From positions 1 through 35,426 of the IMG/VR virus record IMGVR_UViG_3300014502_000019: a stretch of 35,426 nt of DNA; one strand, written 5' to 3'. The stretch comes from a virus. A program made the translations under genes and the position numbers. Below the pieces are notes generated by a model, which did not search any database, was not told where the DNA came from, and saw nothing but the letters and a program-made list of their open reading frames with translations. This document shows positions 156 through 35,180 of the stretch, in pieces; within the stretch, counting starts at the first letter, position 1, and every line of letters begins with the position of its first letter.

Positions 156-920
156 CTAAGGCGACCAAACGCCACCAGAATAATTTCCAAACTGAACAGG
201 GATGAGAGCCATGAACGGAGGTAATAGATTCGCCGCACTTCCTTCAAATGTCGCGTCATGAACATGTGGCTGGGTAGCATAAACTCCGCCTACCAGTTTT
301 CCGCCAACAGATGATGTAATTGATGGCGTTAAATTCTGCACATACGAAGCACAGGGCCCCGATCCCGCCGCCGATAACTCCGTATTACCGCCATGTGCTG
401 CATAATCATCTTCTAAATTATGAATATGCATGATCTCGGCTATTGTAAGAATATGAGATGAGATTAAGACGGAACCAGCAGGCTTAAATGTTTTGTTTCC
501 CATCTGAGTGCCGACCTGATAACCAGAACCAACTGCAGATGCTCCTATCGGAAATTGGTCTGTGAGATCCTCGCTGCCATCAGTACCATCTGCAATATGC
601 CAGTTTAGATAACCTGTGAGAAGTTTCCCGGTGAAGTTCGCCAAGGTACCATACCAGAAGCCAATGACTCCATTTTCTATGCCACTACTAATTGCACTCC
701 CTTCGAATCCACCTAGGAGATCTGCGTTTAGGGTACTGCCGGAACCATCACTATCAGCGGTCCAAAAGTAAGAATCCATTGTTGCTTTTAAATAGTATCT
801 TGAATTATGATTATGCACCGCAAGATAGTCTAAAATTGCTTGGTACTGTGTCTGCAAGTGATTTAAGTCCGAGGCGAGCACTGGAGTTCCCGAAGACCAT
901 GTTTTTGGGACGTATGCCAT
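156..920 (-). CDS. Tail collar-type adhesin / fibre tip, copy 3
   Basis: 254 residues. The N-terminus MAYVP, a helical segment with a Q-rich stretch, and an H-N-H...YY motif are shared with the next two genes upstream. They are followed by a short NADLLGG segment that resembles the fibre motif N-A-D-x-L-D-G. The centre (about 85-175) matches the layout of phage tail collar domains: G-x-W-x-G, then NWHIADGT, then a D-x-x-x-x-F-P-I-G-A segment, and then HILTIAEIMHIH, equivalent to the L-T-x-x-E-M-P-x-H-x-H signature. The start has a strong ribosome site (AAAGGTGAGC). It probably forms a trimeric receptor-binding tip at the distal end of the virion. Host specificity cannot be read from the sequence. 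Confidence 0.72.
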   Translation of the reverse strand: MAYVPKTWSSGTPVLASDLNHLQTQYQAILDYLAVHNHNSRYYLKATMDSYFWTADSDGSGSTLNADLLGGFEGSAISSGIENGVIGFWYGTLANFTGKLLTGYLNWHIADGTDGSEDLTDQFPIGASAVGSGYQVGTQMGNKTFKPAGSVLISSHILTIAEIMHIHNLEDDYAAHGGNTELSAAGSGPCASYVQNLTPSITSSVGGKLVGGVYATQPHVHDATFEGSAANLLPPFMALIPVQFGNYSGGVWSP

Positions 921-1619
921 TTAGCTCACCTTTATAATTAAATATTTCGAAAAGTAAAGTGGAATTATCGAGAATGGATTTAAGGTTATTGCTTTAGTCC
1001 CAGCGCCATGGGCCTCGTCTACAGCGGCGTGGTTATATTCTGTTGTTCCGCTTCGTGTGGATGTTGTGGCGCATTGGCTGCCGCCGCCTCCGCCATAACC
1101 TGGGCTATTGTTATCTTGCCAATCATGGTAATGGTAAGGAATTTCCTCCAATGTTAGCACATGACCAACTATATTCACCGTTCCGCCAGCGGCCGTCAAT
1201 GAGGCCACGCCCCCGATGCTCCGGGCAACATGAAGTGATCCGGCTCCCATAAGAGCCAGCCCCCTGCAATCGGGCAGGACAATACCATTCACGGTACTCC
1301 CGTCTGCTATATGCCAGTTCGTAGGAACATTCACATCAGTTCCATTCCAACCAAAACCCATCCCGATAGGTATCAGACCGCCAATTAACTCATTATAATG
1401 CTTACCGTCAATTTTATCGGCATCCGGCCCGATCCCAGGACCCATATGATTCAGACTAAAAAATCTGGCATCTGATAACGATTTATTGTAATAAAGATCT
1501 TCATGGAGATGGATATCGATATCTAGCTTAGCTTCGGAGAATTGTGTCTCCAATAGGCTCATATTTCTAGCCGTAAGAGGCGTAGAGCCATCGATGAATG
1601 TAATAGGAACGTAGACCAT
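921..1619 (-). CDS. Tail collar-type adhesin / fibre tip, copy 2
   Basis: 232 residues with the same plan as its neighbours. It has MVYVP at the N-terminus, an H-x-H...YY...FF segment at about 35-55, a DADKIDGKHYNEL fibre motif at about 65-78, NWHIADGS at about 102-109, a D-C-R-G-x-A-L-M-G-A-G segment, and HVLTLEEIPYHYH near 153-165. The last motif matches the collar signature closely. A GGGGGS glycine run follows it. The gene ends one base from the start of the next and has GAGGT four bases before its ATG. It is a likely virion adhesin. The divergent C-terminal thirds of the three copies are what would differ in target binding. Confidence 0.74.
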   Translation of the reverse strand: MVYVPITFIDGSTPLTARNMSLLETQFSEAKLDIDIHLHEDLYYNKSLSDARFFSLNHMGPGIGPDADKIDGKHYNELIGGLIPIGMGFGWNGTDVNVPTNWHIADGSTVNGIVLPDCRGLALMGAGSLHVARSIGGVASLTAAGGTVNIVGHVLTLEEIPYHYHDWQDNNSPGYGGGGGSQCATTSTRSGTTEYNHAAVDEAHGAGTKAITLNPFSIIPLYFSKYLIIKVS

Positions 1620-1621
1620 TT

Positions 1622-2374
1622 TTACCTCTTCAATATCCAGGCGTAGGCCCTACTTTTTACCAATAATGGTAAAGATCCAGCATGATAAACATTGTTTTCG
1701 TCATAATAGCCGGTCCACGTGAACGTATTATTTTCATGCGGATGCCCAATGGGATCTATATTCGGAATTCCGGAAACGCTTGATGTAGCTACTGTTCGTG
1801 GAGTAGGATATATATGCGATCCCCCAGTTGATCCGGGCCCCCAGGGATTATATTTGTCGCTATATGTATGTTGATGCCTCGGTATCTGGTTTGTGGTCAA
1901 AATTACAGGATCTAGATCGAAAGCATTAGCATAGGGCGTGACACTTGCCGCACCTCCTAAAGTTCCTGGGGAATATCCATTCCCGGAACATATTAATATT
2001 CGTCCTCTGGTGTCTATAGTTCCATTTTGACCGTTCATGAACAACCAAGAAGCAGAGATTGAGGCAACTGACTTACCCCATAATGCAATCGCCCCGCTGG
2101 GTATCGCAAGGGCTTGGAGCTGAGCCAATGTATAGCCATCTACACTAGCGGCATTGAGGCCAGAACCGGGGCCATCGTTTCTGCCACTTGGATGAGCAGC
2201 AGTTCGGAAGAAGGTTGAAGTGGCTAAGGCTTGAATATAATAGGTGTCATCATGCAAGAAAGCATCTATGTAAGCTAGGCCATCAGCAGCTTGAGTCTCA
2301 AGATTATTCAGACCGTTGATTTTTTGGGTCTGGGTCATTGCATTTTCTTGCCAGATGGTAGGGACGTAAGTCAT
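1622..2374 (-). CDS. Tail collar-type adhesin / fibre tip, copy 1
   Basis: 250 residues and the first of three tandem paralogues in transcription order. It begins MTYVP and carries LHDDTYYIQAL at about 41-51, NAASVDGYTLAQL at about 75-87, and G-A-I-A-L-W-G-K at about 94-101. SWLFMNGQ and a DTRGRILICSGNG segment then replace the usual D-G-T and D-L-R-G-R-F motifs. ILTTNQIPRHQHTY at about 158-171 is the histidine-containing collar motif. The start is supported by GAGGC before ATG. It lies directly downstream of the hub-like gene in the tail operon, and a role in host attachment is inferred from family and position. Confidence 0.74.
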   Translation of the reverse strand: MTYVPTIWQENAMTQTQKINGLNNLETQAADGLAYIDAFLHDDTYYIQALATSTFFRTAAHPSGRNDGPGSGLNAASVDGYTLAQLQALAIPSGAIALWGKSVASISASWLFMNGQNGTIDTRGRILICSGNGYSPGTLGGAASVTPYANAFDLDPVILTTNQIPRHQHTYSDKYNPWGPGSTGGSHIYPTPRTVATSSVSGIPNIDPIGHPHENNTFTWTGYYDENNVYHAGSLPLLVKSRAYAWILKR

Positions 2375-2414: not shown

Positions 2415-4352
2415 CTAAGAGAATGAATCAGTTATTTCGATCTGGAGAGCTTCGAGAGAATTCTTGGTGTATGCAAATACAAATTCATCAAACTTAATTC
2501 CCGTGCCCGCAACCGCAGAAGCACCATAACCTCCATAGATCCTAATCTTCGCTATGGCGCCATTGCCTTCTTGTGATGTCACGAAGAAAGTCGTATCGAC
2601 CTCGCTTGCTGAAACCGTTTGCTCGGTTCGATAGATCCTGGCCAACTCATTGTTTCCAGCATCCAAGAGGACACAATACTTTTGAGCATCATTATCCGGA
2701 TCAACACAAGGCCAAAACGCCGTTCCAGGATAAGTCGATGCCCCTGGATAGACCTGATTGAATAGGTTCGGATTATTGGCCGCATGCCAGGCCTGGGCGA
2801 ACTGATGCAATCCTATGACCTCAGACCCTTCCGAGATGTTCTCCTGAATTATTTGCTGCTGGGGTCGAGAAGCTATTTTGCAGAAAATGTTATCCCACGA
2901 ATCCTCTACAGGGCCCTCTGCGCATTCCACATCTCGATAAATCAAATCATTCTGCTCAGTGATATCAATAGCAGTAATAAGAAATTCTATATCAGATATG
3001 CCATATTTGGGATAGTCTATTGTCTGAAGCTGGCCCGCCGCTATACCATCATCTCGAAGCGTCCTGTATATGAACTTCCGGCCCATAGCGGAATAATGTG
3101 CCAGGAGAGCTGCCGCTCGGTCGAGGGCTGCTTCCTTGGTGTTCAGTGATGAGTCATCTATAATATCTTCTACGACTCCAGTCCCAATGCCTTCTGTCAG
3201 GGCGCGTAGTCCAACCTCAGCCGAATTCGTGACTTTTGCCATGACTGAATAGAGACCGTAGTAATCTACTTTTAGAAGATTGCCATCAGCGAGCGGAGTT
3301 CCCGAAGAATCCTGTGAAATCTCTTTTTCTTCTTTGTTCCAATACCAATCATATCCAGACTCTACCCCTCGGATTCCGACCGTCTTTATGGTCCAAGTGG
3401 ATCCACCATTCGTGGAGACGGAGACAACCGGCTCTTGGCCGATCGCCAGCCTCATGGTGAAAGTCTGGTTGTGGCCATCTCCAACTTTGGTTTCCGTCTG
3501 CAAGACGGTGGTTTCTTTCGATCCTCGGATGTACTGCACGTTTCGGTACTTCGGAGATGATCTCTCCACAGTAGGAACGCCAACCGTATCTTCGTGCGTG
3601 AGCGCCCAGGGACAGGCATAGGTGGTCCGATCGATGAAATAGAGCTTCCTGTAGGTGTCCACAAACCAAGTGAACGTGCCCATGTACTCTTTTCGGGCGT
3701 CCATAGCTTCATTGCCGTGAACATAGTTCGTGGCAGCCTCTAGGACCACATCACCGTCCTGAATCTCCCCTTCTCGGATTCCTTCAGCTCCGAAGTATTG
3801 ACCTAGCAAGTCTCTGACCTGCTCGCCTACGGTCGTGTTCTGCCAGGTGCCCTTTACGATGAGTTTGTCGATTCTGTAGTGTTCATCCGCGAATTCAACA
3901 TCATGCCAGATGAACGATTTGTTTCGAAGAAGCTCTTCCTTACTGGATGAGACTATCCCAGAGAAATGAACGTCTGCCCACTGGTCGTGGAAAGTCACTT
4001 GCTGACCTTCTTCGAAATGCCAGGGTACATCTCTTTCATAGCCCTGGGAATCTTTCACGGTGACCTCCGCCGTGGAGCGTTCTTCAACCCGATGATGTAT
4101 GCCCATCGATCCACGTTTCATCAGGAAATGAACGTCAGCCCAATCCTTGAGTGACATCTGAGCGAAAACCGAAAGGTCATAGTTTCCAGATCCTCCAAGG
4201 GTCATATTAGCGAAATCTGCTAACGAAAGCAAGGCGAAATCTACTAACGAAAGAGAGCCGAACGACCCTGAACTGGCCGATTCTAGAAGGCCAAAGCGAT
4301 GGCTAATGTTGCAGGATTCGTACAGTTTAACATCGCCTATCTGGATGAACAA
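2415..4352 (-). CDS. Baseplate hub / tail-associated protein
   Basis: 645 residues. The start is TTG at 4352, chosen because GGAG lies seven bases upstream and no ATG is near. Residues about 30-75 contain repeated L-S-L-x-D-F-A units, encoded by near-identical 23-base DNA repeats at about 4208-4255. The middle resembles tail hub proteins: R-S-T-A-E-V-T-V-K-D, then a helical VGEQVRDLLGQYFGAEGI segment, then TWFVDTYRKLYFIDR, a typical hub W-x-x-D-x-x-x-x-L-Y-F motif. The C-terminal 130 residues look like a lectin-like beta module (TEQTVSASEVDTTFFVTS). Its position after the tape measure and fibre fits a gp27/Tal-type tip protein. The family is inferred from motifs and order. Confidence 0.6.
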   Translation of the reverse strand: MFIQIGDVKLYESCNISHRFGLLESASSGSFGSLSLVDFALLSLADFANMTLGGSGNYDLSVFAQMSLKDWADVHFLMKRGSMGIHHRVEERSTAEVTVKDSQGYERDVPWHFEEGQQVTFHDQWADVHFSGIVSSSKEELLRNKSFIWHDVEFADEHYRIDKLIVKGTWQNTTVGEQVRDLLGQYFGAEGIREGEIQDGDVVLEAATNYVHGNEAMDARKEYMGTFTWFVDTYRKLYFIDRTTYACPWALTHEDTVGVPTVERSSPKYRNVQYIRGSKETTVLQTETKVGDGHNQTFTMRLAIGQEPVVSVSTNGGSTWTIKTVGIRGVESGYDWYWNKEEKEISQDSSGTPLADGNLLKVDYYGLYSVMAKVTNSAEVGLRALTEGIGTGVVEDIIDDSSLNTKEAALDRAAALLAHYSAMGRKFIYRTLRDDGIAAGQLQTIDYPKYGISDIEFLITAIDITEQNDLIYRDVECAEGPVEDSWDNIFCKIASRPQQQIIQENISEGSEVIGLHQFAQAWHAANNPNLFNQVYPGASTYPGTAFWPCVDPDNDAQKYCVLLDAGNNELARIYRTEQTVSASEVDTTFFVTSQEGNGAIAKIRIYGGYGASAVAGTGIKFDEFVFAYTKNSLEALQIEITDSFS

Positions 4353-12767: not shown

Positions 12768-13175
12768 CTACAGAGCGCTTGAATCAGTGATTACACCAGA
12801 GACCTTGCCGCTTGCAGTGAACTTCACCATGTCTTTCTTGCTGGTCTTCCTGCTGTACTTCTCCAGGGTCACAGTGCCTGTCACACCTATGGCCGTTCCT
12901 GATCCTTTGGTTCCCGAGAATATGCCGGTGAAACTTATGGGAGTGCCAGCTCGGAGTTTTGTGACACATGCCATCGTGGGAGAGTCGGCAGGATCAAAGA
13001 AACCATCGAAAGAGACCTGGGTACCAGTCATGTAAGTGGCGGTGAACTCTTCGCCAGAGTCTCCCTGCTCACTGGTCTCTACAAGATTCATGTTCTCATC
13101 AAGCGACCAGTTTTCTGTCGGAATTAAATTTGCACCGTCATATAATTTACAATTTATTCCTTTAAGTTTAGCCAT
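12768..13175 (-). CDS. Major tail tube protein (short paralogue)
   Basis: 135 residues. WSLDENMNLVETSEQGDSGE near 23-42, then QVSFDGFFDP, then TGTVTLEKYSRKTSKKDMVK near the C-terminus, give a compact beta-rich fold like tail tube proteins. Its size fits a minimal tube subunit. GAGGT lies seven bases before the ATG. It follows the tail terminator gene and precedes the larger paralogue. The gap before it holds a 20-bp perfect palindrome and a hairpin with a T tract, which may adjust expression of this abundant product. Confidence 0.65.
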   Translation of the reverse strand: MAKLKGINCKLYDGANLIPTENWSLDENMNLVETSEQGDSGEEFTATYMTGTQVSFDGFFDPADSPTMACVTKLRAGTPISFTGIFSGTKGSGTAIGVTGTVTLEKYSRKTSKKDMVKFTASGKVSGVITDSSAL

Positions 13176-13193
13176 TTGTCAACCTCTTTTACA

Positions 13194-13213
13194 TTTTGAT
13201 AGATCTATCAAAA
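13194..13213. repeat. 20-bp perfect palindrome before the tail tube gene
   Basis: TTTTGATAGATCTATCAAAA is a perfect inverted repeat with no spacer, 19 bases upstream of the tube gene start. It could be a protein-binding site or an RNA hairpin in the leader. Confidence 0.7.
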
Positions 13214-13226
13214 AGCCTCAAGGCTT
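13213..13226 (-). terminator. Candidate intrinsic-type hairpin between tail terminator and tube genes
   Basis: On the minus strand AAGCCT-TG-AGGCTT is followed by further T residues. This hairpin plus short T tract is terminator-like and abuts the 20-bp palindrome. It could partly separate head/connector from tail-tube transcription. Confidence 0.4.
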
Positions 13227-13245
13227 AGTGATCGTGAAATGAAAA

Positions 13246-13641
13246 CTAGCGCACCAAAATCGTCTCAAAGTCAATGCTGAACCTGAATATGGGCCCATTT
13301 ATGGCAACCAGGTCGTCGTCACTTGTAACATCCTGCGGCTCGCTTCTAGTGGTGAATATCGCGTAATTACCAACCGTTGTGTTGTTCAGTGCAAGCCGAA
13401 TAGCATCTGCGACGTCATGTGCTGTCTGGATGTTGGTATTGCGAACTTGAATCTGGAACGATGGGAAATCTATGCCGTTACCCCCCATCTCTTCTGCGGG
13501 CGGTTTGGCCCCTATGCCATCTTTGATCCAGATACAGTTTAGCGGCTCGGGAGGGAAGAAGTACGGAAAGATGTCCGTGCCTAATACAGTGGCATAGCGT
13601 AGCGATATTAGTCTGGTGATGATATCAGAGACGAGTGTCAT
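13246..13641 (-). CDS. Tail terminator / minor capsid-type protein
   Basis: 131 residues. The pattern is typical of small tail terminator proteins of the minor-capsid family: N-terminal helix (MTLVSDIITRLISLRY), proline-rich loop, SFQIQVRNTNIQTAHDVADA, a helix, and then a C-terminal strand FRFSIDFETILVR. This protein caps the tail tube and joins it to the head. It lies immediately before the tube genes, and its start overlaps the preceding gene by four bases (ATGA). Assignment is by pattern and position. Confidence 0.6.
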   Translation of the reverse strand: MTLVSDIITRLISLRYATVLGTDIFPYFFPPEPLNCIWIKDGIGAKPPAEEMGGNGIDFPSFQIQVRNTNIQTAHDVADAIRLALNNTTVGNYAIFTTRSEPQDVTSDDDLVAINGPIFRFSIDFETILVR

Positions 13642-14024
13642 TTAGGCCATATACCCCAATAGGCAGCTCTCATGATGAAGTCCATTGCTCCAAACGCTAA
13701 TATGATTGTCAAAGCCGCAAACCAGGGATGATCGATAGCGAATTTACAGATTTTCATGAACGTTTTAAGGTTTTCGGCATCAGTAGAGTATTCGTGAATA
13801 TCCTCATCGTTACATGTTTTGACGTCCTCAATTGCCTTAAGGATCTTCTCATAATCTTGCTGGCGTTTTGTTTCGGCGGTGGCGAAGGCCGTCTTGAGTG
13901 ATTGGATCTCATCACAAATTCTCTGCAAGATCGTGGGTAATGTCTCTAAAGTGATCTTCGAAAGGTCGATCGGGCCTACAAGAGATCCGGGACGGGCTTC
14001 TAAAAGGTATTGAGATTCCATCAT
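13638..14024 (-). CDS. Coiled-coil protein with C-terminal membrane segment
   Basis: 128 residues. Residues about 25-95 are helical and charged, with likely coiled coil (ICDEIQSLKTAFATAETKRQ). A single hydrophobic segment at about 101-121 (WFAALTIILAFGAMDFIM) leaves only about seven residues beyond it. GAGGT precedes two adjacent ATG codons, and the second (14021) is equally possible. No family is recognised. Its place beside another small membrane protein and the C1A peptidase suggests a lysis or membrane-remodelling role such as holin or spanin analogue. That role is inferred from context alone. Confidence 0.6.
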   Translation of the reverse strand: MMESQYLLEARPGSLVGPIDLSKITLETLPTILQRICDEIQSLKTAFATAETKRQQDYEKILKAIEDVKTCNDEDIHEYSTDAENLKTFMKICKFAIDHPWFAALTIILAFGAMDFIMRAAYWGIWPK

Positions 14025-14035
14025 GGAACCTCAAT

Positions 14036-14431
14036 TCATTTCTTGAACGACAACAGAGAGCCAAGTCCAAAGTCTGCCAGGACAGCATCAATCTTCGTTC
14101 CCATGTCGATCACATCAGGATCATTGGCGAACTTCTGCATGACCTTGTTCACTGTGTCTACCATTGCCGTTATATCAGCACCAATCTTCGTGATGCTGAG
14201 GATGTTCAATCCCAATACCATGTTTGTATCAACTCCGTTTTTATTTGACTTTGCCAATTTGTTACATTCACCCACAAAACTTTGTGCCGTGACCTTTCTC
14301 ATTCCAACCATTACTCCCGACGGAATGAGACCGGTCAGTACGTCAATATTCTTGGTGACGTACCAGAAAATGATGATAATGATAGCACACGCAACCGCCA
14401 TTATGTATGTGCGTTTGCCCGTGAATTGCAT
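14036..14431 (-). CDS. Small membrane protein, holin candidate
   Basis: 131 residues. One strong membrane segment at about 9-26 (YIMAVACAIIIIIFWYVT) is followed by a mostly helical soluble part, including VLGLNILSITKIGADITAMVD and a C-terminal LADFGLGSLLSFKK. It starts right after the peptidase stop codon with GGAGAAGGG upstream, so the two are translationally linked. The peptidase has no signal peptide, so a partner that lets it cross the membrane is expected. This protein and its neighbours are candidates. No known holin family was recognised. Confidence 0.55.
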   Translation of the reverse strand: MQFTGKRTYIMAVACAIIIIIFWYVTKNIDVLTGLIPSGVMVGMRKVTAQSFVGECNKLAKSNKNGVDTNMVLGLNILSITKIGADITAMVDTVNKVMQKFANDPDVIDMGTKIDAVLADFGLGSLLSFKK

Positions 14432-15790
14432 TTATTTCCCTTCTCCTGGAATGCCAAGAAAGTTAAGCATCGTTTCGGATGTCATTAGATTGTCAATGCC
14501 TTCGGTATCTGGAATGAACTTGAACTGGAAGGCATAATTATAGGCTCCAGATGTACCTAGCCTCATCCATACCAACCAAAGATTCTCTCCAGACGACTTT
14601 GCGATGATATTGTGATGCATTCCCTTGGTATCCGTGAGTTTGAATGTTAGATCACCGGCCGCAAAGTTTCCTAGACTCCGGGATTTGTAATTGGGCAGGG
14701 TCTTAAGAGGTACATCCAACTCTGGATAGCCCTTCTCCTGGATGATCAGGGCACCGGTCTTAGTACCCATGATTGACATGACCATCAAAACACCATCAGA
14801 AGGCAAAGCGATGTCTCCGAGAGGTGCCAACGGGACCATAGTCACGGTCAGCATCGTAACTTGCTTGTCTGTCACGGTGAACTGAAGGGGATAATCCTGG
14901 TAGCCTGCCTTCTTGAGGGTGACATTGTAGCTTCCTGCAGCAAGCGGGACTACCTCATCAGTCTGACCTAGAGTTGCCCCGGTGCCGTCCACTATGTTAG
15001 CCTTCTGGGTTCCTGTCGTGGTTATGTTGACTCCGGTTGTGCCCACTGGAGGCGTGCTTGTCACATCATAGGAGTAGCCCACATAGTCGCGGAATATGCC
15101 ACAGACCCCATAAGCTACCCAGGCATAGCCTTTGAATCCCCAGGTCGGCCCCCAAGAGTTCTTAACCAGCCAAGCTCCCATAGAGTCATCGTAACCTATG
15201 ATGCTCTGACAATGACCGCCTGCATAATCGCCGTACTCGGGAGAATAGACTTTATCCGAGTCAACATCAAAGTAGTCAGTATTGACATCCATGGCAAACT
15301 GAACGGCATGACCAGCAGCTATAGCAGCTTTAGCAGCAGCATCGGATGAGATCCTGTTTGCAGCGAGGATCTTAAAGCTTTTAGTAGCGGCACAAGCTTG
15401 CTTAGATCCATTGTAGGGCCAACAGGCTTCAGTACAGACACCTGTGTTCTGGAGCTTCGAATCTGCCTTCTCAAGGGTAGAACCGGCTGAACAAGTCCCT
15501 ATGCCATCGAACAGATCTGCCTCGGAGAGATCTATCAGCTCTGTTTTGTTTTGATCGAAGAATTTCTTGGTGACTTCGAAAGTTGCACATGAGCCGAAAG
15601 CGACGCAAGAACCACAGTCGCCCTGATCTTTGATTGGAGTATCGTAATCTTTCAGGCTAAACGTCGCTGGCGTAGCCATGAATCGGTGTCCTTTTATGCT
15701 CTTATCATTAGCATCTTCAGCATCGGTCCTCTTAATCTCTTCTGAGATAATGAGGCCTAGCTTCCTGATTTTGCCTTTACCTTTTTCCAT
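14432..15790 (-). CDS. C1A (papain-like) cysteine peptidase with PEGA-like domain
   Basis: 452 residues. Residues about 40-240 are a C1A peptidase. PIKDQGDCGSCVAFG gives the oxyanion Gln56 and catalytic Cys62, GGHCQSIIGYDD gives His193, and KNSWGPTWGFKGYAW gives Asn211, so the active site looks complete. Residues about 252-320 form a PEGA-like surface-layer beta domain (AAGSYNVTLKKAGYQDYPL). The final 130 residues are unrecognised. There is no signal peptide. GGAG precedes the ATG. The gene lies in a cassette of small membrane proteins between head-completion and tail genes. The role is inferred: lysis or entry through a protein cell wall (S-layer or sheath), since archaeal hosts lack murein. 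Host-protein processing is an alternative. Confidence 0.8.
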   Translation of the reverse strand: MEKGKGKIRKLGLIISEEIKRTDAEDANDKSIKGHRFMATPATFSLKDYDTPIKDQGDCGSCVAFGSCATFEVTKKFFDQNKTELIDLSEADLFDGIGTCSAGSTLEKADSKLQNTGVCTEACWPYNGSKQACAATKSFKILAANRISSDAAAKAAIAAGHAVQFAMDVNTDYFDVDSDKVYSPEYGDYAGGHCQSIIGYDDSMGAWLVKNSWGPTWGFKGYAWVAYGVCGIFRDYVGYSYDVTSTPPVGTTGVNITTTGTQKANIVDGTGATLGQTDEVVPLAAGSYNVTLKKAGYQDYPLQFTVTDKQVTMLTVTMVPLAPLGDIALPSDGVLMVMSIMGTKTGALIIQEKGYPELDVPLKTLPNYKSRSLGNFAAGDLTFKLTDTKGMHHNIIAKSSGENLWLVWMRLGTSGAYNYAFQFKFIPDTEGIDNLMTSETMLNFLGIPGEGK

Positions 15791-15807
15791 GAATTAGCTC
15801 CTATTAT

Positions 15808-15951
15808 TCAGTCATCTTTTCTAATTATAGTCTTTCTTTTAAATATCTCAGATTGTAATGGTCGTTTTCTGCGTTGGATTTGCAACTCAAGCCATTCCAA
15901 TTCTGCATAATCAAGACCGGCCAGAAGACCATCCCAAAAGGTAGTGTCCAT
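15808..15951 (-). CDS. Small hypothetical protein, 47 residues
   Basis: ATG at 15951, stop TGA at 15808-15810. It begins MDTTFWDGLLAGLDYAELEW and ends in a strongly basic stretch (QIQRRKRPLQSEIFKRKT). It is an acidic amphipathic helix followed by a cationic tail, with no membrane segment. It lies between a small membrane protein gene and the peptidase in the same direction. Function unknown; it could be a regulator of the lysis-like cassette. The ribosome site is weak. Confidence 0.5.
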   Translation of the reverse strand: MDTTFWDGLLAGLDYAELEWLELQIQRRKRPLQSEIFKRKTIIRKDD

Positions 15952-15984
15952 AAGATCACTCGTCTATTCAACGAATATAATCAG

Positions 15985-16179
15985 TCATTCAGGACACTCC
16001 ACCAGGGGGTGCCCCATTGCGTCTGTGCAACGGCCAATTAGTGGACACATAGCGCAAATAGTCTGCTGTGCTCTTTCTGCCTTGGACATTGGAGTTGAAT
16101 CACTCCAATTCCACAAGAGCCATGACAGACCGCCAATGAAAATAGCAAAAGCAGGAATGCACAATAGAATCTCATCCAT
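15985..16179 (-). CDS. Small membrane protein with Cys-rich tail
   Basis: 64 residues. A hydrophobic segment at about 4-23 (ILLCIPAFAIFIGGLSWLLW) acts as a signal anchor. The outer part has four cysteines in ICAMCPLIGRC and VEC, which could bind metal or form disulfides. AGGCGG lies upstream of the ATG. It is 14 bases from the gp10-like gene upstream and opens the membrane-protein/peptidase cassette. It has no recognised family. A lipoprotein- or spanin-like role at the membrane is possible. Confidence 0.6.
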   Translation of the reverse strand: MDEILLCIPAFAIFIGGLSWLLWNWSDSTPMSKAERAQQTICAMCPLIGRCTDAMGHPLVECPE

Positions 16180-16193
16180 TCAAGCCGCCTATT

Positions 16194-16559
16194 TCATTTA
16201 CTGCACGCTTCTTTCAGCCTTTTGGGAAGTTGGCCGGCCATCTTTTCAGCCGCGTTCTGAAGCCAATGGTCGGTCTGACCGTCGTGATGATGATAAGAAG
16301 CGTCCTCGTGTTGTCGTTTCGCGTACGGTGCAGCAGGACCGCCATAACCTAGAACTACTTCTCTTTCACCGCGCTTGATTTTATGCGTGCCACGCATGGT
16401 TCCGCCCGTCTTGCCAGAACCAGCCGGATATTTTCCCACGGGGCAATGAATTTGAGCCTCATAATCTACATCGGCCGTAAGCCACAATTCGGCACCATTC
16501 AGGAGCTTCTTTTCGTACTCGCTTGCTACCTCATCTCCATTCCATTTGATCGTAGCCAT
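16194..16559 (-). CDS. HK97 gp10-like tail completion / minor capsid protein
   Basis: 121 residues. The centre shows the gp10 pattern: CPVGKYPAGSGKTGGTMRGT, a strand, and then VVLGYGGPAAPYAKRQHED, in which the P-Y-A-x-x-x-x-E-like motif is typical. A C-terminal helix rich in Lys/Glu follows. Such proteins join the tail to the head-closure ring. The start overlaps the stop of the preceding connector gene (TGATG). Three adjacent histidines (YHHHDG) near residue 90 are unusual but probably fortuitous. Confidence 0.66.
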   Translation of the reverse strand: MATIKWNGDEVASEYEKKLLNGAELWLTADVDYEAQIHCPVGKYPAGSGKTGGTMRGTHKIKRGEREVVLGYGGPAAPYAKRQHEDASYHHHDGQTDHWLQNAAEKMAGQLPKRLKEACSK

Positions 16560-18342: not shown

Positions 18343-19005
18343 CTAAGCCGTCACAAGATAGTAGATCTTCACAGGCTTGCCATTATATGCACTGTTGAGA
18401 TCAACGGTATTCAATGCCAGAACAGTGCTCGATGTCGTAACCGTTGCTCCAGTGCCTTCGAGTGTTCCATCCAGGAGAGAATAGAGAATGTTATTGAATC
18501 CCCGTTTCGTGTTTAAGGCCAACTTATCTGCAGTACCTACCTTGAACGTAGTTCCACTCGTGAAGTTCAAGAATCCGACTCTTGATACCGTTTTGAATGC
18601 CTTCGTTGTGGCCTGTGCAGGACTAGAGTTCGACCAGGTCAGCAATTCGGTTATGGTCGTTCCGGCAATATCAGTGCCATCAACTTCTGCGTATCCATCA
18701 CACTGTTTGCTATTGGTCAGCAAGATGGTCCTAGGATAATCCGGCTGAGCCAGGAACGTAGTATAGTTCTTCCAGTTCGTGGTATTTGTGGTAGTTCCTG
18801 CGTCCTTAAGTTGATTGTCATCAGATGCTTCCGGGCCCACAGTCGAGTTTCCTATGGTTTGGATAGCTATCAGGGCCTCTGTGTTGGTTACTCCTTTTGC
18901 ATCAGTCTGGAGAGTCGATCCGGTATTGATCTTCCCAGGATACAGAGCAGCTCCCGCCATTCCAGACACTATGAACAGAGCGAGAAAAATAGAGAAGAGT
19001 CTCAT
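18343..19005 (-). CDS. Head decoration-like protein carrying a signal peptide
   Basis: 220 residues. The start is ATG 19005 because AGGTGA lies five bases upstream; an in-phase GTG at 19014 would add three residues. The body resembles capsid decoration proteins: PRTILLTNSKQCDGYAEVDG, GTTITELLTWSNSS, ATTKAFKTVSRVGFL. Its position right after the major capsid gene is typical. Oddly it begins MRLFSIFLALFIVSGMAGAA, a convincing signal peptide with a cut near residue 19. Either the signal is removed or retained inside assembling heads, or the protein is exported and binds virions or cells from outside. Confidence 0.6.
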   Translation of the reverse strand: MRLFSIFLALFIVSGMAGAALYPGKINTGSTLQTDAKGVTNTEALIAIQTIGNSTVGPEASDDNQLKDAGTTTNTTNWKNYTTFLAQPDYPRTILLTNSKQCDGYAEVDGTDIAGTTITELLTWSNSSPAQATTKAFKTVSRVGFLNFTSGTTFKVGTADKLALNTKRGFNNILYSLLDGTLEGTGATVTTSSTVLALNTVDLNSAYNGKPVKIYYLVTA

Positions 19006-19014
19006 CTTTCTCAC

Positions 19015-32107: not shown

Positions 32108-32353
32108 CTAGGCCTCCAACTTCGTGTACCGTCGCGCAAAACTCAAGCCTTCCGGGGTGGCAAAATAAATCCCGTCGGATGGATCTGTCAGAAAACCGCG
32201 ATCAATGAGTTCCTTAAGGTGATGCTTGAGACTCATAAAGTTCAAATTGGACTGATAAACGATTTGCGTCTTGTTCGCGCCACCCTTTGCGGCGACTAAA
32301 ATGTCTCGCTGAATAGCGAGCCGATCACGCTTTGTGTATTTTAGATCTGCCAT
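32108..32353 (-). CDS. Archaeal winged-helix transcription regulator
   Basis: 81 residues from ATG 32353; an in-phase TTG at 32371 is less well placed. YTKRDRLAIQRDILVAAKGG, then ANKTQIVYQSNLNFMSLKHH and LKELIDRGFL follow the common archaeal small wHTH plan K-T-x-I-V-Y-x-x-N-L-N-F. A wing (GIYFATPEGLSFARRY) completes the domain. It is the first gene of the long early operon. An 11-bp inverted repeat and a TATATAT element lie just upstream, so self-regulation is likely. Confidence 0.75.
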   Translation of the reverse strand: MADLKYTKRDRLAIQRDILVAAKGGANKTQIVYQSNLNFMSLKHHLKELIDRGFLTDPSDGIYFATPEGLSFARRYTKLEA

Positions 32354-32369
32354 TCCTTTCACCTTCTCC

Positions 32370-32490
32370 AAGAATGGCCGATCCGGAACCTAGATCCGAA
32401 GGCTATATATGCAACTTTCGAGCATATTAGCTATCGGTCGGGGGACTCTTCACACTTTCTGAGGGCGAGAAGGATTCACCGGCCATTCTT
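32370..32490. repeat. 11-bp inverted repeat bracketing the early promoter
   Basis: AAGAATGGCCG (32370-32380) and CGGCCATTCTT (32480-32490) are perfect arms 99 bases apart. The left arm overlaps the predicted start site of the early operon, consistent with an operator pair. Confidence 0.6.
32404..32410 (-). promoter_or_regulatory. TATA element of the early operon
   Basis: TATATAT is the only good TATA sequence in the 246-base gap before the wHTH gene. It predicts a start near 32378, with a leader of about 25 bases before ATG 32353. Confidence 0.45.
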
Positions 32491-33359: not shown

Positions 33360-33947
33360 ATGTTAAAAGCAAACACAACATTGGCAGCTTTGGCTATAAT
33401 AGCCTTTGCTCTATCAGGAATGGCAAGTGCAAACTTGGGATTCAGTATCAGTATGGGCAGTGGAGCAACCACGTTCACAGACAATATGAACTTTGGTCCT
33501 AATACCTTCCAGCAGAATACGGGTACTACGTTCTCCAAGACTATCGGCATTGGCTCAGATCCCGCCGCTGGATTCTGTCACGGCTGGACAAATAACCAAG
33601 GCACCTTATCTGGACAGGCAATGTATCAGATGACTAATGGACAAATCCAGGCCCAGAGCCAATTTGATCAAGGTTCTGCCACTGCTCAGATGCAATTCCA
33701 AGACACCGGCGCGAAATTGATGCTTATTAGTGGCACCCAATCCGGTGACGATGTAAACAACGTGTGGACAAATGCCTGGACCACGAATTACAATGGGGTC
33801 ACTTCCTCATCTAGCGCAAACTGGCAATGGCAGAACGCGCAGGTTATCAATGGCATAACGATGGACAGGTCAACTGATACAATGTCCACTCAGTTCTATC
33901 TGGCGAGCCCAATTGTGACGCCTCTGACCAGACTACTGTTCGCTTAG
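33360..33947 (+). CDS. Exported protein 1, 195 residues
   Basis: A signal peptide at 1-24 (TLAALAIIAFALSGMASA) is followed by a mature part rich in Gln, Ser, Thr, Asn and Gly with alternating polar/apolar strands: GFSISMGSGATTFTDNMNFG, NGQIQAQSQFDQGSATAQMQ, SSSSANWQWQNAQVINGITM. This composition suggests an extracellular beta-solenoid or fibre-like protein. AAGGAG lies six bases before the ATG. First of four exported products in the cassette. No family recognised. One Cys is in GFCHGW. Confidence 0.7.
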   Translation: MLKANTTLAALAIIAFALSGMASANLGFSISMGSGATTFTDNMNFGPNTFQQNTGTTFSKTIGIGSDPAAGFCHGWTNNQGTLSGQAMYQMTNGQIQAQSQFDQGSATAQMQFQDTGAKLMLISGTQSGDDVNNVWTNAWTTNYNGVTSSSSANWQWQNAQVINGITMDRSTDTMSTQFYLASPIVTPLTRLLFA

Positions 33948-33959
33948 AAGGGCTTAGTC

Positions 33960-34211
33960 ATGAAAAAGGCAATTTGCGTAATGGTAGCATCAATAGCAAC
34001 GTTGGCACTGATGGGAATGAGTTGCGCTATGGATATGTCACCGAATGATGCCGCGTTTGGCAACGGAGGAAGCGATCCAGGATTTACCCCCGGAGACAAT
34101 AGCGCGGCTAACAATATCAACGATGCCTTTCCGGGCATCATAGGCGGTGACTATGGCAACGATGATAGCGTGGTAGATGATGGATTTGATACGAGCGACG
34201 GGGGATGGTAG
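33960..34211 (+). CDS. Exported acidic protein 2, 83 residues
   Basis: Signal peptide MKKAICVMVASIATLALMGM, with a cleavage region at S-C-A-M; the cysteine there might also be lipidated. The mature part is short, glycine/aspartate-rich and acidic: NGGSDPGFTPGDNSAANNIN, GDYGNDDSVVDDGFDTSDGG. It is probably unstructured or calcium-binding outside the cell. It lies 12 bases after exported protein 1 with AAGGG upstream. Confidence 0.65.
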   Translation: MKKAICVMVASIATLALMGMSCAMDMSPNDAAFGNGGSDPGFTPGDNSAANNINDAFPGIIGGDYGNDDSVVDDGFDTSDGGW

Positions 34212-34252
34212 ACGTCCCACGCGCTTTCTTTTCTTTTTAGGAGGATAAATAA

Positions 34253-34399
34253 ATGGTAATCAGCATTCGACCAAGCACGGTTAATCTCAGGAAACGGATG
34301 GGCCTAATTACCCAAAGAAGAGCAGGTCATAACCCAGAAAAAGGAATCAAAATTGAGATGGATAGACCAAAAGTATTTGAGGAATCTAATCATAGGTAA
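34253..34399 (+). CDS. Basic cytoplasmic miniprotein, 48 residues
   Basis: AGGAGGA six bases before the ATG makes the start firm. It begins MVISIRPSTVNLRKRMGLIT and continues QRRAGHNPEKGIKIEMDRPK. It is basic, with no signal peptide, and the only gene of the rightward cassette besides the regulator whose product stays inside. It could bind nucleic acid. Function unknown. Confidence 0.58.
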   Translation: MVISIRPSTVNLRKRMGLITQRRAGHNPEKGIKIEMDRPKVFEESNHR

Positions 34400-34416
34400 G
34401 TAACAGAGGTAAGTAT

Positions 34417-34713
34417 ATGAGAAACGTATTAGTCGTGTTGGCCATCGCAGCCCTTCTAGTGCCCGCGATGGGATTGAATCAGGTACAAACATCCTGGCTA
34501 GATGGCGTAAATAACGGATATCAATTGGGTGTCCTCGCATGGCAAGCCAGAGGTAACCAGACCGCCGCTGACTTATATAATGCTCAAGTGGACAAGTTGA
34601 ATGCCCTGTTCAAGGTCACGATGAATGAGACAGACTATAAAGTCAATGAACTGGGCCATATCCATCCGATCGTCACACAATCTGATCTGCCTGAGTTTTT
34701 GAGGTCTACATGA
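34417..34713 (+). CDS. Exported protein 3, 98 residues
   Basis: Signal peptide at 1-19 (MRNVLVVLAIAALLVPAMG). The mature 79 residues are helical: NQVQTSWLDGVNNGYQLGVL, TAADLYNAQVDKLNALFKVT. GHIHPIV lies near the C-terminus. GAGGT precedes the ATG, and the stop overlaps the next start (ATGA), so it is co-translated with exported protein 4. The two may work as a pair. Confidence 0.68.
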   Translation: MRNVLVVLAIAALLVPAMGLNQVQTSWLDGVNNGYQLGVLAWQARGNQTAADLYNAQVDKLNALFKVTMNETDYKVNELGHIHPIVTQSDLPEFLRST

Positions 34714-35180
34714 AACCAATGTTTGTTGCGATGGTAATTATAACGGTCATGGTTTTGCCCTCGGTGGCATCAGATAAAACGGTCTTTGGTCGCGATAATC
34801 TGACCAGTGATCCTTGGATGGTCCAAGGTCCGGCCCAAGCAAACAAACCTACTCATGTAATAGATGGATCTACAAAAGGTGTCAATATCGTGGTTGGTTC
34901 AATGGGCGAGATGGGGCAGGCCAACCTAGACGCTTATGAGGCCCAAAACGGCGTGAGCATAGATGCTAAAGGCACTCATACACTAGGACCGGGGATAACC
35001 CCGAGAAGCCAATGGGACAACTCACTTGGCGGCAGCATAGGCATGGCCCCGTTAGATTCGAATTATGGCATCTTCGGAGAACCCGCCCTTAAGACCACAG
35101 ATCCAGCATATCTGAGCATGGGTGCGCAACCTATCTCTAATCAGTCATCTCTTCCGCTCTCTTTACAAGGAGGTGTATAA
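34710..35180 (+). CDS. Exported protein 4, 156 residues
   Basis: Signal peptide MKPMFVAMVIITVMVLPSVA. The mature 136 residues are Gly/Ser/Pro-rich with few charges: KTVFGRDNLTSDPWMVQGPA, GVNIVVGSMGEMGQANLDAY, SLGGSIGMAPLDSNYGIFGE. Unrecognised; it could be surface-bound. It is the last gene of the rightward cassette and is translationally coupled to protein 3. The next gene is convergent, 40 bases away. Confidence 0.68.
   Translation: MKPMFVAMVIITVMVLPSVASDKTVFGRDNLTSDPWMVQGPAQANKPTHVIDGSTKGVNIVVGSMGEMGQANLDAYEAQNGVSIDAKGTHTLGPGITPRSQWDNSLGGSIGMAPLDSNYGIFGEPALKTTDPAYLSMGAQPISNQSSLPLSLQGGV

Follow-up and report, generated by a model that had tools for sequence, protein, structure and literature searches.

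A papain-like peptidase gene and its membrane-protein neighbours as a candidate lysis cassette in a tailed virus of a presumed protein-enveloped archaeon

How do tailed viruses lyse archaea that have no murein? The question is open. A 2015 review proposed that holins act together with S-layer-degrading proteases, and noted that isolated archaeal viruses had no known holin gene and that no S-layer-degrading enzyme was known (PMC4456609). A locus that bears on this proposal lies in the IMG/VR virus record IMGVR_UViG_3300014502_000019, whose 35,426 bases were analyzed here (the window). Between its neck and tail genes the window encodes a papain-like peptidase, PEP, accompanied by small membrane proteins, which the initial annotation had put forward as a candidate lysis or entry cassette for a murein-free host. 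The reading that we favor, with moderate confidence, is that PEP and the membrane proteins encoded downstream of it form an endolysin/holin-like lysis cassette in which a papain-like protease would act on a protein envelope.

The minus strand of the window encodes terminase, an SPP1-type portal protein, scaffold, an HK97-type capsid protein, adaptor, Mu F-like and gp10-like proteins, tail terminator, tail tube, tape measure and further tail proteins. The slot of interest runs from the gp10-like gene through M64, P47, PEP, M131 and M128 to the tail terminator. These handles denote window genes, L-numbers label comparison loci, and transmembrane (TM) segments and signal peptides were called by hydropathy scan throughout.

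16194-16559, minus strand: gp10/neck-like gene, the upstream flank of the slot (weak PHROG neck match, 0.025; homologues in L080-L084)
15985-16179, minus strand: M64, 64 residues, with one N-terminal TM segment (residues 4-22) and a cysteine-rich tail; candidate cassette member (hydropathy)
15808-15951, minus strand: P47, a conserved small protein of 47 residues and slot marker (occurs in L002 and L003 without a peptidase)
14432-15790, minus strand: PEP, 452 residues, a papain-like (C1A) peptidase with PEGA domain and C-terminal module; proposed protease endolysin (Pfam, PDB phmmer, model, Foldseek, VIA)
15677-15790, minus strand: N-terminal arm of PEP, residues 1-38, possibly a short propeptide (hydropathy, model, structure alignment)
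15056-15673, minus strand: catalytic domain of PEP, residues 40-245 (Gln56, Cys62, His193, Asn211)
14834-14980, minus strand: PEGA domain of PEP, residues 271-319, dispensable (Pfam; lost in L085, L088 and L086)
14435-14803, minus strand: C-terminal module of PEP, residues 330-452, fast-evolving (without match in Pfam or PDB)
14036-14431, minus strand: M131, 131 residues, with one N-terminal TM segment (residues 8-26); proposed holin-like partner (hydropathy, position)
13638-14024, minus strand: M128, 128 residues, with a coiled-coil-like N-terminal part and a C-terminal TM segment (residues 100-118) (hydropathy, homologues)
13246-13641, minus strand: tail terminator, the downstream flank of the slot (PF12691, E 2.6e-8)

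The slot is almost gapless, its intergenic spacing ranging from a 4-base overlap between M128 and the tail terminator to 33 bases between M64 and P47, with the end of PEP abutting the start of M131. Such tight spacing suggests that the genes form one operon.

PEP can be placed in a peptidase family with some precision. Residues 51-233 match Peptidase_C1 with an E value of 4e-28, a match above the Pfam cut-off, and the catalytic residues Q56, C62, H193 and N211 are unchanged in all 16 viral C1 sequences of an alignment. The nearest solved structures by sequence (phmmer against PDB) are cathepsins and plant papains, cathepsin K at E 1e-20. A model of residues 1-245, with a predicted local distance difference test score (pLDDT) of 89.1 and a predicted template modeling score of 0.89, adopts a papain fold, and both its Foldseek and its VIA lists are topped by papain-family chains (VIA Z 24-26; best example 1xkg, with Z 26.1 and a root mean square deviation of 2.7 over 224 residues). 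Its structure neighbors in BFVD include viral cathepsins and two phage proteins, one peptidoglycan binding-like and the other an N-acetylmuramidase by name only. Judged by modeled fold and catalytic Gln/Cys/His/Asn, PEP is a member of papain family C1A with predicted peptidase activity. Two other identities were considered and rejected: a pseudomurein endoisopeptidase, since PEP matches C1A and not the transglutaminase families, and a prohead protease, which would be of the wrong family and is absent from the relatives.

A scan of close relatives with the PEP sequence alone returned no viral homologue, and such homologues were reached only through an alignment that included two bacterial C1 peptidases. 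IMG/VR homologues were then found in the structural region of L082 (75% identity, residues 2-245), L085 (49%) and L088 (about 32%). L082 belongs to L080-L084, which represent one virus type, 75% identical to PEP over the catalytic part, in which the tail terminator is followed directly by the peptidase, then by an 86-residue protein with two TM segments (2-TM protein) and, further on, by a coiled-coil/TM protein of 152 residues. L085 has P47, a 145-residue gene product, the peptidase and M128 in that order; two hydrophobic stretches in its peptidase, seen by eye and lying under the hydropathy threshold, suggest a fused TM tail. In L088, whose record has terminase, portal, tape measure and primase in common with the window, a peptidase with a signal peptide is followed by a 73-residue 2-TM protein and a 131-residue coiled-coil/TM protein. 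L082 and L088 share 60% identity in their 2-TM proteins, and a scan with this partner returned only viruses already known. Two further genes were noticed at these loci: a Mu F-like head protein in L088 (12225-13817, plus strand) that is apparently split by an intein-like (Hint) insertion, and a secreted transglutaminase-like protein in the L082 tail region (12827-13504, plus strand; very weak Pfam match, E 0.13), which might be a second envelope-active enzyme.

The case for lysis is one of comparative genomics. In five of five viruses (window, L082, L085, L088 and L104) the C1 gene is followed immediately by a gene for a TM protein of at most 131 residues, a linkage that amounts to about two independent partner lineages (M128, and the 2-TM protein of L082 and L088); small TM genes make up only 4-23% of the same-strand genes in the records of these five. 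The pairing that defines a lysis cassette, in which the gene for a lytic enzyme has a small TM gene of holin type as its neighbor, is present here in predicted form. M131 is the positional analogue of the small TM genes in L082, L088 and L104. M128 has homologues in L085 (70% identity) and L104 (66%), both beside a C1 peptidase, and across all loci compared its homologues were seen solely next to such enzymes. A scan with the M128 alignment returned L085 again together with one new virus, L104, in which a 270-residue C1 peptidase of another type (Pfam E 1e-12) stands in a row with a 97-residue TM protein and M128. The presence of so divergent a C1 peptidase beside M128 indicates that the enzyme has been exchanged, within the same enzyme class, while the partner was kept. 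A match of M128 to AbiTi (E 0.0084) in an anti-phage defense library, which otherwise returned nothing relevant, looks like a coiled-coil match and was set aside.

The remainder of PEP is less constrained than its catalytic part. Residues 271-319 match PEGA (PF08308, E 1.3e-5, 25.4 bits against a cut-off of 20.8), as does the L082 homologue (25.7 bits), and the alignment lacks this domain in the L085, L088 and L086 homologues. The C-terminal module, of about 120 residues, has no match in Pfam or PDB; a weak W-x-V ... Y motif within it is common to L082, L085, L088 and L086. A model of full-length PEP built from 5 sequences is poor (pLDDT 44) except in the PEGA region (about 80), and no claims about the C-terminus were drawn from it. 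PEP and its L082 homologue are 75% identical over residues 1-245 and 35% over the rest. PEP would be a conserved enzyme with exchangeable extras, an endolysin-like modularity that emerges from the sequence comparison. The initial annotation thus holds as to the C1A peptidase with an intact active site, the fused PEGA-like domain, the missing signal peptide, the three small membrane proteins (M64, M131 and M128, one TM segment each) and the insertion between the gp10-like gene and the tail terminator; PEGA as an essential part does not survive the comparison. Homologues, moreover, lie in viral structural regions and are not confined to host house-keeping loci, and at least some related viruses share the insertion.

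Is the gene selected for in the virus at all? Archaeal genomes such as that of Methanosarcina acetivorans carry C1 peptidases, and the L086 version has a signal peptide and resembles a cellular enzyme, as might be expected if PEP were cargo, acquired from a host and under no selection for a function in the virus. The proportions of differing synonymous (pS) and nonsynonymous (pN) sites argue otherwise: pS is 0.84 (saturated) and pN 0.16 between the catalytic part of PEP and the 75%-identical viral homologue, and M128 and its homologues give pS values of 0.91 and 0.74 with pN values of 0.18 and 0.20. Low pN with saturated pS indicates strong purifying selection on the catalytic part of PEP and on M128, and the locus is therefore not a chance artefact. 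With such selection, and with recurrence in several virus lineages beside fixed partners, mere cargo is the least credible of the explanations considered here.

From its sequence and setting we infer that PEP is proteolytic, that it is exported through M131/M128, that it has an envelope substrate and that its action leads to lysis. No N-terminal signal was found in PEP by the hydropathy scan. Residues 11-30 were modeled at pLDDT 81-91, and VIA aligns residues 1-38 to the pro-regions of pro-Der p 1 and procathepsins B and X, alignment ranges that raise the possibility that PEP is a zymogen with a short pro-arm. The enzyme would be made in the cytoplasm late in infection, perhaps kept inactive by this arm, until M131, holin-like, and M128, with its coiled coil and C-terminal TM segment, opened or depolarized the membrane; PEP would then get outside and cleave S-layer or sheath proteins, and the cell would break open. 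The PEGA domain and the variable C-terminal module could aid binding to the envelope. The enzymes of L082, L085 and L104 likewise have no predicted signal peptide, so that they and PEP would rely on membrane partners. That of L088 has one by the hydropathy scan, which implies that it should act outside the cytoplasm and which may direct it to the Sec pathway.

Several observations weigh against a lysis cassette. Pfam and PHROGs assign the TM partners (M131, M128 and the 2-TM proteins) to no holin family, holins being very diverse. No C1 peptidase was found in the 31 records nearest by capsid protein, many of them fragments, and the peptidase is, on this sequence comparison, not universal in the lineage. 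In sequenced genomes the nearest capsid relatives are, by sequence, bacterial prophages: a genome scan with the capsid protein, which returned only bacterial loci, placed it closest to an Armatimonadetes bin (46%) and to Clostridia and other Firmicutes (44% or less). Finally, the slot sits amid virion genes, where entry proteins could be encoded too. PEP might instead be a virion protease, sited in neck or tail, that makes a local opening in the S-layer or sheath through which DNA is delivered: the window, L082, L085 and L088 all encode the peptidase amid their neck and tail genes, window PEP has no predicted signal peptide, and C-terminal modules could provide docking to tail or envelope. The signal peptide of the L088 enzyme, on the other hand, suits secretion and not virion assembly, the immediate downstream neighbors are small TM proteins where tail proteins might have been expected, and an entry role also sits poorly with the failure to find the gene in those related records and with the changing gene order, the peptidase preceding the tail terminator in the window and following it in L082. 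An entry role is less likely than lysis, and we regard it as unlikely. Of the two functions first suggested, lysis is the one strengthened, by the recurring TM linkage, the retention of M128 beside a swapped C1 enzyme, the L088 signal peptide and the bacterial-phage neighborhoods described below; entry was the weaker half.

What the slot holds elsewhere raises another alternative. Viruses with 64-70% identical capsid proteins carry other small genes there, behind P47 in two of them, whose products are Zn-ribbon proteins and secreted proteins of short length, a small protein that is glycine/alanine-rich or has a TM segment, and a coiled-coil-like protein with one TM segment. This differing content makes the slot a variable cassette site, and P47, found in relatives without a peptidase, is a marker of the slot; it is not necessarily a member of the peptidase cassette, in which the initial annotation had included it. 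(A scan with the portal protein gave one match, which was irrelevant.) PEP could then be a moron-like accessory that cleaves host surface proteins or receptors, so that superinfection is blocked or progeny are kept from re-adsorbing, while the TM proteins serve as anchors; the patchy distribution, the variable small secreted and TM genes in the slot of relatives, and the several other secreted proteins encoded in the window would all be compatible with this. The recurrence of one enzyme class with the same TM partners, and the swap of C1 subfamily beside M128, better fit an essential enzyme-partner pair. Bacterial phages also speak against an accessory role, since their C1 genes sit in lysis modules: in L087 and L089 a GH24-type endolysin gene (phrog_7, lysis, E <1e-49) stands immediately before the C1 gene, and in L096 and L097 the genes before it encode small TM proteins laid out like holins, which have no significant holin-family match. 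We judge the accessory role rather improbable. To return to lysis, these neighborhoods suggest that lysis modules in general may include C1 peptidases, as a component that has drawn little attention. The best PHROG for L087 and L096 is phrog_16701, which PEP matches weakly (7.5e-6). The bacterial plasmid C1 peptidases nearest to the viral one (L077, 1243-3157; L078, 1-2584) adjoin I42 (chagasin-type) protease inhibitors; no match to an I42-type inhibitor was found in the window's cassette.

The secreted proteins of the window invite a comparison with sheathed archaea. Secreted sheath-like (SH-like) proteins, whose core consists of two six-stranded amyloid-like sheets, were proposed in 2024 as egress tools of viruses of such hosts, and amyloid-degrading proteases were named there as a possibility only (PMC11576556). 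One window gene is a candidate:

33360-33947, plus strand: secreted Gly/Ser/Thr/Asn-rich protein of 195 residues, candidate SH-like protein (hydropathy signal peptide, 44% G+S+T+N)

Its product has a predicted signal peptide and falls within the length range of SH-like proteins, 150-350 residues. No sequence homologue was found in viral contigs, phages or related records, and it is hence on composition and signal peptide that its sheath-likeness rests. Secreted Gly/Ser/Thr/Asn-rich proteins of 182-308 residues, which could be SH-like, occur in the window, in the records of L082 and L088 and in L104, a small number of cases; the L003 record (40,000 of 40,874 bases examined) has neither an SH-like candidate nor a peptidase. 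The L104 protein (2797-3345, plus strand), of 182 residues and likewise a sheath-like candidate, lies three genes upstream of the C1 peptidase. In the window, the candidate opens a run of four consecutive plus-strand genes (33360, 33960, 34417 and 34710, spanning 33360-35180), all with predicted signal peptides. Near the capsid gene, 18343-19014 on the minus strand encodes a protein that looks decoration-like by eye and has a predicted signal peptide conserved across relatives (L002, 3557-4240; L003, 10982-11653; L005, 3365-4024; L085, 4535-5215), several of which are rich in N-glycosylation sequons. A tandem trio of related tail-tip/fiber genes (gA, gB and gC; 156-2374, minus strand), all matching the same genes of the L088 record, suggests duplicated adhesins.

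With several signal-peptide proteins encoded by the window and its relatives, PEP might mature secreted or structural proteins of the virus itself, decoration-like or SH-like, instead of attacking the host envelope, maturation being a frequent task of papain-like enzymes. Nevertheless L002, L003 and L005, in which no peptidase was found, encode the secreted decoration-like protein, and a processing role leaves the linkage to TM partners unexplained; we hold it to be highly improbable. The favored lysis reading can be extended, tentatively and at less than even confidence, to the proposal that tailed viruses of protein-enveloped archaea may own a dedicated lysis system, composed of a papain-like protease that is released by holin-like proteins and cuts S-layer or sheath and of secreted sheath-like proteins, with the C1 subfamily exchangeable and M128 kept.

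Such a system presupposes an archaeal host, which the sequences make very likely; that the host is a methanogen is likely. The window encodes a chromatin protein of the Sso10a family (32108-32371, minus strand; NCBIfam NF053610, 64.8 bits against a cut-off of 60), a family also found in the record of L082, another peptidase carrier (G032, 46501-46692). Over 56% of its length the primase shows 36% identity to its counterpart in Methanoculleus virus Blf4, and bacterial phages match it too. Given its bacterial neighbors, the capsid does not settle the host. The murein-free archaeal host first suggested gains indirect support from Sso10a.

The proposed cassette can be compared with known systems. 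Phage endolysin/holin cassettes are exemplified by xhlA-xhlB-xlyA of the Bacillus phage-like element PBSX. As in PBSX, one predicted lytic enzyme gene, encoding a modular enzyme, stands beside genes for a small TM protein and a coiled-coil/one-TM protein. In contrast with PBSX, the window enzyme is a C1A protease and not a murein hydrolase, its TM proteins have no holin or XhlA match, and the genes lie between neck and tail genes; XhlA (PF10779) did not match M128 or its homologues at E 1, so that the likeness is one of layout only. Baculovirus cathepsin (V-CATH), a C1A protease of insect viruses, is synthesized as a pre-proenzyme destined for the secretory pathway and acts on dead host tissue. 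In the role proposed for it, PEP would likewise be a virus-encoded C1A protease that aids progeny release through host protein barriers. The C1 peptidases of phrog_16701 in phages belong to the same Pfam family; the L104 enzyme looks to be of this type, whereas PEP is rather a cathepsin-like C1A enzyme with PEGA. PHROGs annotates phrog_16701 as 'other: peptidase' and not as lysis.

Among archaeal viruses, PeiW, PeiP and PeiR of methanogen viruses are pseudomurein endoisopeptidases (PMC4592898, PMC6189367), transglutaminase-like enzymes with a Cys-His-Asp triad that cut pseudomurein cross-links (PMC4592898). A catalytic cysteine is common to these enzymes and PEP, which has the papain-like Gln-Cys-His-Asn set instead. 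Methanophagales virus GBV302 encodes a C39-like endopeptidase, a putative lytic protein recognized by weak structural similarity (TM-score 0.556) (PMC12596118); both it and PEP are cysteine peptidases proposed to be lytic for an archaeal virus, one C39-like and the other C1A. SH-like proteins, also proposed as an egress tool against a protein envelope, would be structural decoys, whereas PEP would be an enzyme. A 2025 survey detected lytic proteins in 10.9% of 129 archaeal double-stranded DNA viruses, and its main text mentions no C1 or C1A lytic protein (PMC12596118); a prior mention in the 2023 Nature Microbiology compendium of methanogen viruses is possible.

What would be new here is a cassette of endolysin/holin type with a protein-cutting enzyme in the place of the cell-wall enzyme, an arrangement that fits the 2015 hypothesis (PMC4456609). 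For the lysis of murein-free archaea by tailed viruses, the cassette supplies named genes, an active-site residue and a partner protein. If the lysis reading is true, PEP would become the first known example of an enzyme that lyses protein-enveloped archaeal cells for a virus, and would be an enzyme directed against the methanogen envelope, where tools are few.

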